Origin: Phaeobacter porticola
Lineage (GTDB): Bacteria; Pseudomonadota; Alphaproteobacteria; Rhodobacterales; Rhodobacteraceae
Reading direction: 5' to 3'
DNA length: 64,000 bases
NCBI RefSeq assembly: GCF_001888185.1
Contig: NZ_CP016364.1
Coordinates: forward strand, 434,001 to 498,000
Shown here: positions 36,408 to 56,827 of the stretch, piece after piece
How the letters are laid out: each line of letters begins with the position of its first letter
Numbering within the stretch: position 1 is the stretch's first letter
Translations under genes and position numbers: made by a program
Notes under the pieces: model-generated
What the model saw: the letters and a program-made list of their open reading frames with translations, nothing else
The model's database searches: none
Told to the model about the DNA's origin: nothing

Positions 36408-36513
36408 GGCGCCCTCCGCGCGTGGAAGGGAATGAACCGGAGGAGCTGGCAGGCCAAAAGGTGGACGTGCAGACCCTGCCAGGACACCCCGCCCGGTTTT
36501 GAGTTTCTCGTCA

Positions 36514-36735
36514 GATGGCAGGTCTCCTGACTTGCGGCTCATCACAATCCCAGGCCTTCCCAATGCTCGCGAACCCGTCAGGATTTTTAGCATCAGTGGC
36601 GTTTTCCGAGGTTGCTCACCGCTTACAGTTGCGGGGGCAGTCGCGGCATTGGTCAGGCATGCGCCGTTCCTCACCGTGTTCCCTTTTCATCCTGCCCGCA
36701 TTGCTGCGGCACAAGAACCATCTGCCCAACGGCTA
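36514..36735 (-). ncRNA. Cobalamin (B12) riboswitch
   Basis: Minus strand reads in order GAAAAGGGAACACGGTGAG, ACTGCCCCCGCAACTGTAAG, the B12 box GCCACTG, GGGAAGGCCTGGGA, and GATGAGCCGCAAGTCAGGAG followed by ACCTGCC. These are the conserved elements of the class, in the right order and spacing. It ends about 110 bases before the DUF1636 start. A probable promoter (TTGTTA, 16 bases, TACTAC) lies near 36800-36835 on the minus strand. Confidence 0.94.
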
Positions 36736-36929
36736 GCGGTAGTGGAGCCGAGTCGTCAAGTGTTTCGTTGAGCTGGTTTCGGACCCCATTCCGAAGTTTC
36801 GCCCAAATGTAGTATTTGACGCTTAGGGAATAACAACATGCTGGAGTTCGCCCGGCCGTAGTAGCATCATGGATCACAGCGCTACCGCAAGGGGCAACGC
36901 AAGCACGCAGATAAAAATGGAAAGGTTAG

Positions 36930-37027
36930 GTGAGAGGTTGGACATCGACCCAAGCGGGGCTCGTTGTGGCTGCTTCCTTCCGGATCTGACCAGGTTGGCG
37001 AGGCGCTCGCCCGCGCCAACCTCTCAC
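36930..37027 (-). ncRNA. ffs: SRP RNA (4.5S, ffs)
   Basis: Minus strand, 98 nt. The ends GTGAGAGGTTGG and CCAACCTCTCAC close a 12-bp helix, and the apical part holds the invariant TCCGGAAGGAAGCAGCC with GGTCAGA before it. This RNA binds Ffh for co-translational membrane targeting. Confidence 0.94.
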
Positions 37028-50364: not shown

Positions 50365-50378
50365 TTGATACAGATCAA
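50365..50378. promoter_or_regulatory. FNR box in the usp/ccoN divergent region
   Basis: TTGAT-ACAG-ATCAA, a perfect palindrome, 94 bases before the ccoN start. With the box at -41.5, transcription would start near 50413, with CATTTA as a -10 candidate at 50401-50406. Confidence 0.9.
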
Positions 50379-50471: not shown

Positions 50472-52082
50472 ATGTCTAATTATATCAAGCTAATTGCGCT
50501 TGGTTTGGTCACGCTCTTTGCGATGATCGCGACCAACTACGCGCGGGACGTGGCCTACCAGGTCCATGCGATCATCATCATGGTCGTAGCGGCCGGGCTG
50601 TTTCTCCATACTCTTCGGCGCACGGATGAACCAGTGCTCGCTGCGGGGTCGCTGCAGGGAGAGTACTTCGATAGTGTGGTGCGCGCCGGTGTGGTGGCAA
50701 CCGCGTTCTGGGGCGTGGTCGGGTTTCTGGTGGGTGTCTTCATCGCCTTCCAGCTTGCCTTTCCGGTCCTGAACTTTGAGTGGGCGCAGGGGCTGGCCAA
50801 CTTCGGGCGGCTGCGGCCTCTGCATACTTCGGCGGTGATTTTTGCCTTTGGTGGCAATGCGCTGATTGCGACCTCATTTTACGTGGTGCAGCGCACCTCG
50901 GCCGCCCGTCTCTGGGGCGGTAACTTGGCGTGGTTTGTGTTCTGGGGCTATCAGCTGTTCATCGTGCTGGCGGCGACCGGCTATCTGTTCGGGTCGACCC
51001 AGTCCAAGGAATACGCGGAACCGGAATGGCATGTTGATCTATGGTTGACCATTGTCTGGGTGGCTTATCTGGCTGTGTTCCTGGGCACCGTCATCAAGCG
51101 CAAAGAACCGCATATCTATGTAGCCAACTGGTTCTACCTCGCGTTCATCGTGACCGTGGCGATGCTGCATCTGGTCAACAACATGACGATCCCTGTCAGC
51201 ATCTGGGGCTCCAAATCGGTGATCATGTGGTCGGGCGTGCAGGATGCAATGGTGCAGTGGTGGTACGGCCACAACGCTGTGGGCTTCTTCCTGACTGCGG
51301 GGTTCCTTGGCATGATGTACTACTTCGTGCCGAAGCAAGCAGAACGCCCCGTGTTCAGTTACAAGCTGTCGATCATCCACTTCTGGGCACTGATCTTTCT
51401 GTACATCTGGGCTGGCCCGCACCACCTGCACTACACCGCGCTGCCGGATTGGGCCTCGACCCTTGGCATGGTGTTCTCAATCGTGCTGTGGATGCCTAGC
51501 TGGGGCGGTATGATCAACGGTCTGATGACCCTGTCGGGTGCCTGGGACAAGCTGCGCACCGACCCGGTGATCCGAATGATGGTAATCTCTATCGGCTTCT
51601 ACGGCATGTCCACCTTTGAAGGTCCGATGATGTCGATCCGCGCCGTGAACTCGCTGTCGCATTATACCGACTGGACCATTGGTCACGTTCACTCCGGCGC
51701 GCTTGGCTGGAACGGCATGATCACCTTTGGTGCGCTCTACTTCCTGGTGCCGGTCCTGTGGAAACGTGAGCGTCTCTACAGCCTGAGCCTGGTGTCCTGG
51801 CATTTCTGGTTGGCCACCATTGGCATCATTCTCTACGCGGCATCCATGTGGGTGACCGGCATCATGGAAGGCCTGATGTGGCGCGAAGTGGATGCCAACG
51901 GGTTCCTGGTGAACTCCTTTGCCGACACGGTGGCTGCGAAATTCCCGATGTACGTGGTGCGCGCTCTGGGTGGGGTCATGTTCCTCGCTGGTGCTCTCGT
52001 CATGTGTTACAACCTGTGGATGACTGTACGGCGCGCGCCGGCCAAAGAGGCCAGCCTGACCGTCGCAGTTCCCGCTGAATAA
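50472..52082 (+). CDS. ccoN: cbb3-type cytochrome c oxidase subunit I
   Basis: Catalytic subunit with heme b, heme b3 and CuB, 536 residues and about twelve membrane segments. Conserved parts include [20 protein letters not shown] (low-spin heme ligand region), [20 protein letters not shown] (CuB His), the Tyr/His crosslink region and [20 protein letters not shown] (heme ligands). High-affinity oxygen reduction under microaerobic conditions. First gene of ccoNOQP, preceded by an FNR box. Confidence 0.97.
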
Positions 52083-52096
52083 GGAGGGCCCGAGCA

Positions 52097-52825
52097 ATGG
52101 GAATTCTCGACAAGCACAAAATCCTCGAGACCAACGCGACCCTCCTTCTGGTGTGCAGCTTCCTGGTTGTCACCATCGGTGGTCTTGTCCAAATCGCGCC
52201 GCTGTTCTGGCTGGAAAACACCATCGAAGAGGTGGAGGGCATGCGTCCCTACACCCCGCTGGAGCTGGCCGGGCGTGATATCTACATCCGTGAAGGCTGC
52301 TATGTCTGTCACAGCCAGATGATCCGCCCAATGCGGGACGAGGTCGAACGGTATGGACCATATTCGCTGGCGGCAGAGTCGATGTATGACCACCCGTTCC
52401 AGTGGGGGTCCAAGCGAACCGGTCCGGATCTGGCCCGTGTGGGTGGTCGCTATTCAGATGAATGGCATGTGGATCACCTGCGCAATCCGCAGTCAGTGGT
52501 GCCGGAGTCGGTAATGCCAAAATATGGCTTCCTTGAGGGCAACCGGATCGATGGAAAATACATCGGCGATGTGATGACGGCAAATGCCTTTGTTGGGGTG
52601 CCCTATTCCGATCAGATGCTGGAAAACGCGCAGGCAGACTTCCGAGCGCAGAGCGATCCAGATGCCGACTACGACGGCCTGCTGGAGCGCTACGGAGAAA
52701 AGGTCAGTGTGCGCAATTTCGACGGCCAACCGGGGATCTCCGAGGCCGATGCGCTGATCGCCTATTTGCAAATGCTGGGGACATTGGTTGATTTCTCGAC
52801 CTTTACCCCCGTTGCCAACCGCTGA
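52097..52825 (+). CDS. ccoO: cbb3-type cytochrome c oxidase subunit II (mono-heme)
   Basis: Membrane-anchored cytochrome c subunit, 242 residues. One N-terminal membrane segment, then [20 protein letters not shown] (heme c site CYVCH) and a distal Met region ([14 protein letters not shown]). Passes electrons from CcoP to CcoN. Starts 14 bases after ccoN with AAGGAGGG ahead of it. Confidence 0.97.
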
Positions 52826-52837
52826 TTGGAGGCAGAC

Positions 52838-53035
52838 ATGGACATTTATACTCTGCTTCGGGAATTCGCCGACAGCTGGATGCTGCTCTTCCTGTTTGTG
52901 TTCTTTCTGGCCGTGGTGGTCTGGGCGTTTCGCCCCGGCAGCACCAAGGTTTACAAGGATACCGCTAACATCCCCTTCCGGCATGAAGACAAACCCGCCC
53001 CAGAAATGGGTAAAGCCAAGGAGGCGCGGTCATGA
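52838..53035 (+). CDS. ccoQ: cbb3-type cytochrome c oxidase subunit CcoQ
   Basis: Small single-pass membrane protein, 65 residues: [20 protein letters not shown], then a membrane helix ending [10 protein letters not shown] and a short soluble tail. Stabilises the complex. The start is the ATG preceded by GGAGG, 12 bases after ccoO; its stop overlaps the ccoP start as ATGA. Confidence 0.92.
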
Positions 53036-53901
53036 GCAAGAAAGTGAAGAAGTTCGAGGACGATCCGAACACCACCGGCCACAGTTGGGATGGGATCGAA
53101 GAATTCGACAATCCGATGCCGCGTTGGTGGCTCTGGACTTTCTATGCCACCATTATCTGGGCCATCGGTTATACTGTTGCCTATCCAGCCTGGCCGGGGA
53201 TTCAATCGGCGACGGCTGGTGTGCTGGGCTGGAATTCCCGAGCGCTGGTCGCAGAAGAAATCGCAGCCGTGAATGAGGCCAACGCCCCGATCAACAGCCG
53301 TCTGGAGGAGATTGAGCTGGCGTCTATTACCACCGATCCCGAGTTGAACGGCTATGCGGTCTCGGCTGGTTCTGCGGTGTTCAAGACCTGGTGTGCGCAG
53401 TGTCACGGTGCCGGTGCCGCCGGTGCCAAGGGCTATCCTAATCTCTTGGATGATGACTGGCTTTGGGGCGGATCAATGGAAGACATCCATACAACGATTG
53501 CCCATGGTATCCGCAATGAGGAAAGCGATGACGCGCGCTACTCTGAAATGCCTGCCTTCGGTCGTGATGAGCTGCTGGAGAAGGACGAGATCAGCCAGGT
53601 CGTCAACTACGTGATGTCGCTGTCCGGCGAGGCGCAGGATGCCTCTCAGGTTGCGGCCGGGTCGGTTATTTTTGCAGATAACTGCGCCTCTTGCCATGCT
53701 GAGGACGGCACAGGAGACCGCGAACAAGGCGCGCCAAACTTGGCGGATGCGATTTGGCTTTATGGCGGTGATTACGCCACTTTGACCGAGACCGTGCATA
53801 ATTCGCGCTACGGTGTGATGCCGAACTGGAATACCCGCCTCACAGAGGCGCAGGTTCGCGCCGTGACCGCCTATGTCCACCAACTGGGTGGCGGCGAATA
53901 A
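53032..53901 (+). CDS. ccoP: cbb3-type cytochrome c oxidase subunit III (di-heme)
   Basis: Diheme cytochrome c of 289 residues. N-terminal [20 protein letters not shown] with a membrane segment, then two heme sites, CAQCHG near residue 123 and CASCHA near 220, each with a distal Met (EMPAF, GVMPNW). Accepts electrons from soluble or membrane cytochromes. Last gene of ccoNOQP, followed by a hairpin. Confidence 0.97.
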
Positions 53902-53956: not shown

Positions 53957-54052
53957 TAATTGTGTACGGCGATTGAAGATGGGGGATTTCCTTCTTGAAG
54001 CTACAGTTACTATAGGGTGTAGCCGTGTCGGGCATTGGAAAAAGGATACACC

Positions 54053-54826
54053 ATGTCTGACGTCGCACACCTCACGCCATCCACCATGCTGGACTTTCGC
54101 AGCCCTGCTATCGTGAGGCTGATTAGTCAAAGAGGCTGGCTGGGGCTGCGTCCTTCTGAACGGATCGGCGCGGCTTATGATTTTGTCAGCAACGAGATCC
54201 TGTTCGGCTACAATATGTCCGACACCCGCAGGGCGTCTCAGGTGCTGGCGGATGGCTACGGTCAGTGCAACACCAAGGCAACGCTGCTAATGGCACTGCT
54301 GCGGGGCTTGGGTATTCCCTGCCGACTGCACGGTTTCACCATCGATAAGAGCCTACAACGCGGCGTAGTGCCTGAACTGGTTTACTGGATGGCGCCGCAG
54401 AATATTCTTCACTCCTGGGTTGAAGTAAGGCTGGACGGGCGGTGGATCAATCTTGAGGGGTTCATTCTCGATAACGGCGTATTGGTGGCGCTTCAGGCGG
54501 CTTTCCCAGGACGGAACTCGCTTTGTGCCTATGGCGCTGGGACGGATTGCCTACAGAGCCCGCAAACTGTTTGGCACGGCCAGGACACGTATATTCAAAA
54601 GACTGGCATCAACGCCGATCTTGGCTTGTTTGAGAGCCCGGATGCGTTCTACGCCCACCACCAACAGGCACTGACGGGGCTACGCAGATGGCTATATCGA
54701 AACGGCATCCGGCATTGGATGAACAGGCGGGTCGCCCTGATCCGACGCGGGTTGGTGCCAAAGTTGCCAGGCGGGGAGGCTACGTTGAACCCAAGCATTC
54801 GTAAGCGGGTCTTTGGGGTGGAATAA
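54053..54826 (+). CDS. Transglutaminase-like domain protein
   Basis: Protein of 257 residues. The catalytic-cysteine region DGYGQCNTKATLLMALLRGLG near residue 76 and the histidine block ILHSWVEVRLDGRWINLEGF near 120 fit the transglutaminase-like (papain-like) superfamily; the Asp of the triad is probably in the following strand. Bacterial members are often peptidases. It has no signal peptide. It sits between ccoNOQP and ccoGHIS, two operons that are usually adjacent, and was not obviously part of either. Role unknown. Start 54053 preferred to one 18 bases upstream. Confidence 0.78.
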   Translation: MSDVAHLTPSTMLDFRSPAIVRLISQRGWLGLRPSERIGAAYDFVSNEILFGYNMSDTRRASQVLADGYGQCNTKATLLMALLRGLGIPCRLHGFTIDKSLQRGVVPELVYWMAPQNILHSWVEVRLDGRWINLEGFILDNGVLVALQAAFPGRNSLCAYGAGTDCLQSPQTVWHGQDTYIQKTGINADLGLFESPDAFYAHHQQALTGLRRWLYRNGIRHWMNRRVALIRRGLVPKLPGGEATLNPSIRKRVFGVE

Positions 54827-54854: not shown

Positions 54855-54868
54855 TTGATCCGTATCAA
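54855..54868 (+). promoter_or_regulatory. Perfect FNR box with matched -10, orphan promoter
   Basis: TTGAT-CCGT-ATCAA centred at 54861.5. A -10 hexamer TAATCT lies at 54891-54896, exactly -12 to -7 if transcription starts at 54903 with the box at -41.5. This is a class II FNR promoter layout. The next rightward gene, ccoG, is 520 bases away and has its own box, so this promoter must drive something within the gap. Confidence 0.8.
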
Positions 54869-54902
54869 ATACATCTGATCCGCAGCACTCTAATCTGAGA
54901 AA

Positions 54903-55031
54903 ACTAGACAATGCCGCTGGTTTGCCTTCTTGCGCTTCGGTGGCCACCTATCCCCAGACCCACTTATGGGCTTGGGGCAAGCGTCGGCTTTTGATCTGTT
55001 CGCGCGTTTCCTGAAAGCCGACGCTTTTTTT
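54903..55031 (+). ncRNA. Predicted FnrL-activated small RNA (about 129 nt)
   Basis: Predicted from an FNR-type promoter at 54855-54896 and an intrinsic terminator ending at 55031. The body holds a hairpin (CCCCA at 54952-54956 with TGGGG at 54973-54977, inner CCCA/TGGG) and the terminator stem. The reading frames in it are short, without ribosome binding sites. E. coli FnrS is a known FNR-activated small RNA of similar size; no sequence kinship to it is claimed. Orientation is supported because the T-run exists only on the plus strand. Confidence 0.6.
54979..55031 (+). terminator. Strong intrinsic terminator in the usp-cco intergenic gap
   Basis: GCGTCGGCTTT (54981-54991) pairs perfectly with AAAGCCGACGC (55014-55024), extended by A-T pairs, then seven T at 55025-55031. 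The loop is 22 bases. No protein gene ends just before it. Confidence 0.82.
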
Positions 55032-55314: not shown

Positions 55315-55328
55315 TTGATCCACGTCAA
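55315..55328 (+). promoter_or_regulatory. FNR box before ccoG
   Basis: TTGAT-CCAC-GTCAA, one base off the perfect palindrome, 60 bases before the ccoG start. Gives FnrL control of ccoGHIS. Confidence 0.83.
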
Positions 55329-55387
55329 GGTTCGCCAGTCGCGTATCTGGGACAACCGCAGCACAATGCAAGATTTGGAGTGAGTCC

Positions 55388-56827
55388 GTGAGCGATTCCG
55401 ACCCCGCCCCCAGCCTATATGCCGCCAGAGAACCGATTTTCCCGCGGCGTGTGTCCGGGCCGTTTCGAAACTTGAAATGGTATATCATGGCGGTGACGCT
55501 GGGGATCTACTACCTGACGCCCTGGATCCGCTGGGACCGGGGTCCGGCACTTCCGGATCAGGCGGTTTTGCTGGATCTGGCCAACCGGCGCTTTTATTTC
55601 TTCTGGATCGAAATCTGGCCACATGAATTCTACTTCGTCGCCGGCCTGCTGATCATGGCCGGGCTGGGGTTGTTTCTGTTTACGTCGGCGCTTGGCCGTG
55701 TCTGGTGTGGCTACACCTGTCCGCAAACTGTCTGGACCGACCTTTTCATTCTGGTGGAACGCTGGATCGAAGGGGATCGAAACGCGCGACTGCGCCTGCA
55801 CCGCCAGAAAAATCTGGATTTCAGAAAGGCGCGGCTGAGGGTGACCAAATGGGTGGCGTGGCTGTTGATTGGCCTGGCGACCGGCGGGGCTTGGGTGTTT
55901 TACTTTGCCGATGCGCCGACTTTGCTTTGGGATCTTGTCACGGGCAACGCCCATCCCGTTGCCTATACCACAATGGCAATCTTGACCGGCACCACCTTTC
56001 TCTTCGGGGGCTTTGCCCGAGAGCAAATCTGCATCTATGCCTGTCCCTGGCCGCGTATTCAGGCGGCGATGATGGATGAGGATACCTTGACCGTAGGCTA
56101 CCGCGAATGGCGTGGAGAGCCGCGTGGCAAGCCTCGCAAGACCGATGAGCCCGGTCTGGTGCATGGCGACTGCATTGATTGCATGGCCTGCGTGAATGTC
56201 TGCCCGATGGGGATCGACATTCGCGACGGTCAGCAGATGGAGTGCATTACCTGTGCGCTGTGTATTGATGCCTGTGACGATGTCATGGAGCGGATCGGTA
56301 AACCACGTGGCCTGATCGACTATATGGCATTGAGCGACGAGGCAAATGAACGCGCTGGACAGCCACCAAAGAACATCTGGAAACATATCCTGCGCCCGCG
56401 CACGATCATGTATACAACGCTCTGGGGGGCTGTCGGCCTTGCCCTGATATTTGCGTTGTTCATCCGCTCCGATATAGAGTTGACGGTTGCCCCTGTCCGC
56501 AACCCAACTTTTGTCACGCTTTCTGATGGCTCAATCCGCAATACCTATGATGTCCGCCTGCGCAACAAATCGGGCGAGCCGCGTCCGTTTGAGCTGTCGA
56601 TCAAGGGGACGCCTGATATGCGGCTGACCTTGGAAGGTGTGGATGATACTATTGTCACTGTGCCCGCCGACACCAGCTTTCTTCAGCGGGTTTACATCGT
56701 GGCGCCTAAAACGGCAGACGCAGCGGCGGCGCGTAGCACACCGGTGCGGATCTGGGTGACAGATATCGACAATGGCGAGCGCGCGCACAAGGATAGCAGC
56801 TTTAACGGAAGCGGGAGCGGACAATGA
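55388..56827 (+). CDS. ccoG: CcoG/FixG, cbb3 oxidase assembly iron-sulfur protein
   Basis: Membrane protein of 479 residues with several membrane segments and two [4Fe-4S] motifs: CIDCMACVNVCPMGIDIRDG and CITCALCIDACDDVMERIG near residues 262-300. Reduces copper in cbb3 oxidase assembly; the R. capsulatus and R. sphaeroides homologue is RdxA/CcoG. The C-terminal periplasmic Ig-like part contains VTLSDGSIRNTYDVRLRNKS. First gene of ccoGHIS, GTG or ATG choices upstream are not better. Confidence 0.95.
   Translation: MSDSDPAPSLYAAREPIFPRRVSGPFRNLKWYIMAVTLGIYYLTPWIRWDRGPALPDQAVLLDLANRRFYFFWIEIWPHEFYFVAGLLIMAGLGLFLFTSALGRVWCGYTCPQTVWTDLFILVERWIEGDRNARLRLHRQKNLDFRKARLRVTKWVAWLLIGLATGGAWVFYFADAPTLLWDLVTGNAHPVAYTTMAILTGTTFLFGGFAREQICIYACPWPRIQAAMMDEDTLTVGYREWRGEPRGKPRKTDEPGLVHGDCIDCMACVNVCPMGIDIRDGQQMECITCALCIDACDDVMERIGKPRGLIDYMALSDEANERAGQPPKNIWKHILRPRTIMYTTLWGAVGLALIFALFIRSDIELTVAPVRNPTFVTLSDGSIRNTYDVRLRNKSGEPRPFELSIKGTPDMRLTLEGVDDTIVTVPADTSFLQRVYIVAPKTADAAAARSTPVRIWVTDIDNGERAHKDSSFNGSGSGQ

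Follow-up and report, generated by a model that had tools for sequence, protein, structure and literature searches.

A conserved hairpin beside the cbb3 oxidase genes of Rhodobacteraceae as a candidate FnrL-dependent small RNA with two genomic architectures

Introduction

The HRC-8-4 motif has been described as an orphan RNA candidate with 160 representatives in Rhodobacterales, where it is found between ccoNOQP and ccoGHIS (Brewer et al. 2021, PMC8632094). Its discoverers suggest a terminator-embedded switch, perhaps involving HvrB (PMC8632094). As described in the accessible sections of that paper, the motif shares with the hairpin discussed in the following the order of bacteria, the place, a terminator-like stem with a conserved loop and, sometimes, other genes in between; these sections do not mention FNR promoters, on 3′-end versus stand-alone forms or on complementarity to the ccoG and ccoN leaders.

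Other described systems resemble the present one in part. In Escherichia coli, the small RNA FnrS is directly regulated by FNR (as given in the accessible part of PMC4263372), and the RNA considered here is likewise predicted to be FNR-activated and made without oxygen; it differs in its position, in that its pairing surface would be the loop of a terminator-like hairpin, and in that no Rfam match to FnrS was obtained with the RNA of the window. OppZ and CarZ of Vibrio cholerae and PcrX and SorX of Rhodobacter sphaeroides are small RNAs that derive from operon or gene 3′ ends, and OppZ and PcrX act on the mRNA of their own operon (PMC9438474, in the sections available); in the present case, by contrast, the ccoG or ccoN mRNA would carry the putative site at its predicted 5′ end, and some lineages have a separate FNR promoter. 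In the same family, RSs0019 (Pos19) and RSs2461 of R. sphaeroides are small RNAs with FnrL-bound promoters, but the former is encoded on chromosome 2 and the latter is co-transcribed with RSP_0847, so that, according to the accessible text, neither lies at ccoP-rdxB (PMC4263372).

The starting point was a sequence-only reading of the window, i.e. the whole 64-kb stretch of Phaeobacter porticola DNA that was analysed, which had proposed an FnrL-activated stand-alone small RNA next to the oxidase genes, parallel to FnrS in function and apparently unrelated to it in sequence, with no described counterpart known to it at this position. The last statement has to be withdrawn, the hairpin having already been published as HRC-8-4, to judge from the accessible sections of PMC8632094; the name itself occurs in that paper alone within the open-access literature. 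As for FnrS, the functional parallel holds by prediction only. No account of an FNR promoter, a 3′-end origin or a pairing function of the hairpin was recognised in the titles and abstract openings of open-access papers, and the main texts of the small RNA papers on P. denitrificans and R. pomeroyi, in their accessible parts, name neither cco nor cbb3 (PMC5107571, PMC4809877); their supplements may contain such an account.

The predicted promoter and RNA in the window

All features of the locus lie on the forward strand. The pattern TTGA-N6-TCAA occurs three times in the window, namely as the FNR box of ccoNOQP ahead of ccoN (50365–50378), as the perfect box TTGATCCGTATCAA ahead of the RNA (54855–54868) and as a separate box ahead of ccoG (55315–55328), the last of which had been anticipated. 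The first is followed by ccoN (50472–52082, COX1 family), ccoO (52097–52825, FixO) and ccoP (53032–53901, FixP_N and cytochrome c domains), the third by ccoG (55388–56827, FixG_C), with which ccoGHIS starts. A transglutaminase-like gene (54035–54826) lies between ccoP and the RNA and has the same position in L003–L006; it is absent from that place in L002, and homologues are found farther upstream of the hairpin in L050 and L073.

The box of the RNA and a −10 element, TAATCT (54891–54896), stand at class II spacing, as the sequence-only reading had it, and the predicted start at about 54903 follows from setting the centre of the box at −41.5. The box recurs in five further genomes of the genus (L002–L006), with TAnnnT at equal spacing in L003–L006 and TAAACA, one base earlier, in L002. 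A perfect box and a −10 element at class II spacing are combined and conserved, and activation by FNR is predicted.

With this start the RNA would be about 129 nt long (54903–55031). Folding of the segment 54904–55031 gives −51.6 kcal/mol (z −4.57; none of 200 shuffled sequences folds as well). Of the three hairpins in this structure the first two are the weaker; the third is strong, has a large loop and is followed by a run of seven T (55025–55031). Across six sequences of the genus, stem-loop 1 (54913–54944), with some pair changes, and stem-loop 2 (54952–54977), in which the C-rich hairpin reported earlier ahead of the terminator is recovered, both persist, some of the substitutions being compensatory. 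Hairpin 3 (54979–55026), which is conserved, HRC-8-4-like and, in the window's genome, terminator-like, carries the 18-nt loop CTGTTCGCGCGTTTCCTG (54996–55013), the proposed pairing site, on a stem of 13 contiguous complementary bases (54979–54991 with 55014–55026); the strong terminator stem with its seven T had been seen correctly, its length having been given as 11 bp instead of 13.

The claim that no convincing protein gene lies in the segment is borne out: a conserved frame was not found, the loop is fixed in 15 BLAST-found relatives, third codon positions included, and stem bases change in pairs, so that a protein gene was rejected. Within the RNA segment no Rfam family reached its gathering score; CcsR1 (RF02791), which appeared under a lax threshold with 19.2 bits and an E value of 0.037, requires 65.3 bits and was discarded, as was a LexA-like site in the loop, which does not fit the alphaproteobacterial LexA box. 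Elsewhere in the window, Rfam matches above the gathering score mark a cobalamin riboswitch (36500–36737) and a small SRP RNA (36928–37026), both on the minus strand.

Hairpin 3 across Rhodobacteraceae

A DNA search matched 17 of 101 genomes, the window's own included; hairpin 3 is present with its 18-nt loop unchanged in 15 of the 16 others, the remaining one (L014) being a chance match of the promoter part only. Scanning for the exact loop returned at least 119 stretches. Pooled with the first set these make at least 138 instances, 126 of which (119 unique) have the stem; the other 12, with weaker stems and no ccoP or ccoG context, look like chance and were left out. Loop identity among the scanned copies is by construction, as the scan asked for the exact loop, and for the same reason carries no weight against a coding function. 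The stem covaries, 12 of its 13 pairs being changed on both sides (91 sequences, among the matches listed).

A covariance search across relatives, which had been suggested as a check, was run with a model built on the exact-loop set, and matches were obtained under strict filters in at least 112 of 248 genomes of the family and in none of the 20 listed genomes lacking FixO (22 such genomes in all). Outside the family, two weak matches were found in 289 genomes of the class, with no ccoP or ccoG within 1.5 kb. Across Rhodobacteraceae the hairpin usually lies between ccoP and ccoG. It thus shares with HRC-8-4 the confinement to Rhodobacterales, apart from the two weak matches, the prevailing place between ccoNOQP and ccoGHIS and, in the window, the terminator-like stem with loop and U run. 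Hairpin 3 of the window matches that motif by place and shape, as judged by the description in the accessible part of PMC8632094. A U run is present in 54 of the 119 unique hairpins, among the matches listed, so that many of them may not terminate transcription and termination would not be a conserved property.

Tandem copies, about 91 or 286 nt apart, occur at L041, L101, L045 and G231:C42, with three copies in L101 and G231.

Two genomic architectures

The majority form, with 74 of the 119 hairpins among the matches listed, is found at the 3′ end of ccoNOQP and lacks an FNR box of its own. When boxes were scored in the interval 40–230 nt before the loop (background 0.046 per interval), none was found for the 74 unique copies that are no more than 110 nt away from the ccoP end, as against 32 of the 35 copies farther than 110 nt from ccoP, among the matches listed (Fisher 1.7e-24, kinship between the genomes overstating independence). 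Ten of the copies listed have no ccoP in view, and a box precedes nine of them. The exceptions are of two kinds: the three boxless distant copies are second or third copies in tandem (L041, L101), and the boxless tenth copy (L070) has only 128 nt of upstream sequence, its twin L002 having the box. In the 41 detached promoters that carry a box, the class II −10 columns stand out as T-A...T when aligned on it (T in 21, A in 29 and the last T in 20). The ccoG gene, on its part, has a perfect FNR box of its own after the hairpin in 50 of the 53 listed loci with the ccoG start within 700 nt.

Since a box is absent near ccoP and present in detached copies, the RNA appears to come under FNR by two routes, following the regulator either via ccoNOQP or by itself. 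The copy of the window, having its own box, is unlike the 3′-UTR-type relatives, as far as FNR boxes alone were scored. FNR control together with a short stand-alone transcript is strongly supported for it by the comparison of genomes. For the earlier proposal of an FnrL-activated stand-alone small RNA this means that it is supported for the detached copies, in nearly all of which FNR box and terminator hairpin are indeed conserved together, and does not extend to most copies of the family, which are boxless and lie behind ccoNOQP. The pattern of boxes confined to copies detached from ccoP appears to be new.

Complementarity between loop and leaders in short-loop relatives

To look beyond the exact loop, 78 regions were fetched, 18 from genomes with a weak match to the model and 60 from genomes without a match. 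Among the regions from weak-match genomes, 15 show ccoP, and in 13 of these the word CTGTTC follows it within 130 nt; so it does in 16 of the 60 model-negative regions. The core of this shorter loop is CUGUUCGC or near it. Its complement is found at the predicted 5′ end of the ccoG mRNA, mostly as GCGAACAG, in these relatives, which match the exact-loop model weakly or not at all, and GAACAG begins 12 to 34 nt ahead of the ccoG start.

The two words go together. In the 60 regions counted (18 of the 78 were left out, not having both ccoP and ccoG in view), CTGTTC after ccoP and GAACAG before ccoG are both present in 17, the loop word only in five, the leader word only in one and neither in 37; the leader word thus accompanies the loop word in 17 of 22 genomes and stands without it in one of 38 (odds ratio 126, p 1e-9, the genomes being related and independence overstated). 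In the five loop-only regions the loop is long or of intermediate length, GCGCGTTT or GCGCATAT. Pairing between a genome's own loop and own leader spans 7 to 13 bases and is longer than that with the leaders of others (mean 9.6 versus 8.9, permutation p 0.002, or 0.008 when G-U pairs are allowed), and in L218 a 13-base exact match is retained with one base changed on both sides. Thus, short-loop relatives have a complementarity to the ccoG leader that covaries, and this appears to be new as well.

The ccoN leader may be a further partner: GAACAG stands behind its FNR box in 6 of the 16 genomes that have the loop together with the ccoG site and in none of the 24 others, of which four show no perfect FNR box (p 0.002); kinship between genomes makes all these p-values overstate independence. 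More generally, the positions of CGAACAG downstream of FNR boxes are concentrated at about +1 to +4: of 150 lengths among the matches listed, 48 take four of the 31 spacings.

Candidate targets in the window's own clade

The situation is different in the clade with the exact loop. In the window's genome, neither the ccoG nor the ccoN leader has a complement to the loop. Where the ccoG start is visible, CGAACAG precedes it at 5 of 97 exact-loop loci (L055, L076, L097, L116 and L124); ccoN is preceded by it at 3 of 57, both among the matches listed, and with all loops pooled the ccoG site belongs to a minority. As judged from these leaders, it has probably been mostly lost in this clade. At the ccoG start (window 55370–55395) many exact-loop loci read close to CGGAGTGATTCCGTG, the window having TGGAGTGAGTCCGTG; the two ends of a CGGAGTGATTCCGTG-like start could fold over the ribosome site, perhaps in replacement of the lost pairing site.

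Searches for other partners gave leads only. Eight other near-complementary sites in the window's genome (G000) yielded no clear target among leaders, five being inside long frames and three having no frame that starts just behind. At some of the loci CGCGCGAACAG recurs inside ccoG, about 640 nt from its start; it appears to consist of codons of a conserved stretch (FAREQ) and was taken as codon usage. The second half of the loop, searched for as GGAAACG behind FNR boxes, gave matches with no recurring gene, and complement words just before ATG yielded no clear target in seven genomes. One pattern scan gave 212 matches, against 107 for the reversed pattern, in 14 genomes (14 hairpins included), and 9 against 11 in the window's genome; ratios of this kind were not used as evidence, as reversal is an unfair control, by which the FNR box or the ATG is lost or the codon bias altered.

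The leader of ydcH (DUF465) has an FNR box and then CGAACAG, reading AAGGAGCGAACAG at the start codon, in 10 loci, among them that of the window's genome (L289, G000:C1:2186709-2187018, minus strand), where the box is followed by the leader AAGGAGCGAACAG-ATG. As a general target ydcH was rejected, the box being present in 66 of 70 leaders and the word in 11 of 70, confined, by reading, to one part of the family; near relatives have CGAGCAG, CGAACGG or CGAACAC in its place, and even the same-genus G004 has a changed base. In the window's clade, ydcH is a weak candidate. Single genomes have the FNR box and CGAACAG ahead of genes with Pfam matches to Response_reg (L300), Globin (L303) and Ribosomal_S30AE (L308); we take the first to be RegA/PrrA-like and the last to be a ribosome hibernation factor. 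These leaders, as well as that of ydcH, are leads only.

Alternative explanations

The hairpin might do no more than stabilise or terminate the ccoNOQP transcript at its 3′ end, with a protein (an RNA chaperone, for instance) bound to its loop, and the stand-alone FNR form would then serve as a sponge for that protein. That 74 of the 119 unique copies directly follow ccoP and that the long loop is invariant in the 15 BLAST-found relatives would fit; such an element, however, needs neither the stand-alone promoter of nearly all detached copies nor complementarity to the ccoG and ccoN leaders, and we consider it unlikely. Quite unlikely, too, is a terminator-embedded switch (a riboswitch or a protein-sensing element) that would govern read-through into a downstream ccoG or hvrB, in line with the terminator-like stem, the conserved loop and the speculation of the motif's discoverers, but at odds with the perfect FNR box that ccoG has for itself beyond the hairpin at 50 of the 53 loci where it starts within 700 nt and with the U run in only 54 of 119 hairpins; nor would a switch need the complementarity between the loop of short-loop relatives and their ccoG leader.

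That loop and leader words are DNA sites for a regulator, their complementarity being that of an inverted operator pair, is suggested by the occurrence of CGAACAG near +1 of FNR promoters, a usual place for a repressor site. With the orientation fixed (CTGTTC in loops, GAACAG in leaders), the loop copy embedded in a covarying hairpin and pairing longer within than between genomes, this is very improbable. A short conserved peptide, one frame of the loop being readable as sense codons (L-F-A-R-F-L), can be practically discounted: no synonymous loop change is seen in the 15 BLAST-found relatives, stem changes are compensatory, stem lengths vary and short-loop relatives keep just CTGTTC.

Proposed mechanism and implications

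The best reading, to which we assign a probability of roughly two in three, is that of an FnrL-dependent small RNA, made from the 3′ end of ccoNOQP or transcribed separately, whose loop pairs with mRNA leaders. The comparison of genomes shows the hairpin itself, its covariation and position, the FNR boxes and the loop–leader complementarity of the relatives. From these patterns we infer transcription, pairing, the direction of the effect and a target in the window's genome.

At low oxygen, FnrL would turn on ccoNOQP, ccoGHIS and the small RNA, the functional core of which would be hairpin 3. In most copies the hairpin would be the tail of the ccoNOQP mRNA, whereas a class II FNR promoter of its own would drive it in those lineages, Phaeobacter among them, in which it is detached from ccoP. 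Its large loop would act as the pairing surface, the short-loop CCUGUUCGC pairing with GCGAACAGG at the very 5′ end of the ccoG mRNA and, in some genomes, also with the 5′ end of the ccoN mRNA. Pairing would tune the oxidase assembly factors against the oxidase, most likely via blocked ribosome binding on short leaders, and repression would be expected, since pairing over GAACAGG presumably covers or crowds the ribosome site there; with the opposite sign, pairing at the very 5′ end could protect the mRNA. In the window's clade, with its longer loop (CUGUUCGCGCGUUUCCUG) and the ccoG site mostly gone, the RNA probably acts on other mRNAs.

A wider idea, which we put forward tentatively and hold to be doubtful, is that GCGAACAG at +1 of FNR-driven mRNAs may form a post-transcriptional code of the FNR regulon of Rhodobacteraceae, read by one hairpin, itself produced with the mRNA of the cbb3 oxidase or from a separate FNR promoter, on ccoG and ccoN and, in some lineages, on the mRNAs of a RegA/PrrA-like regulator, a globin, a hibernation factor and ydcH. 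A feedback among oxidase, assembly and oxygen response would be closed in this way, and a longer loop together with the loss of the ccoG site would be the way in which lineages rewire it.

With the proposed pairing, a motif published in 2021 without a function gains a concrete and testable role. If it is true, the cbb3 oxidase and its assembly factors would be balanced by an RNA from the oxidase operon, under a regulator that they share. The switch between a 3′-end form and a stand-alone FNR form within one family would offer a natural experiment in the origin of small RNA genes.
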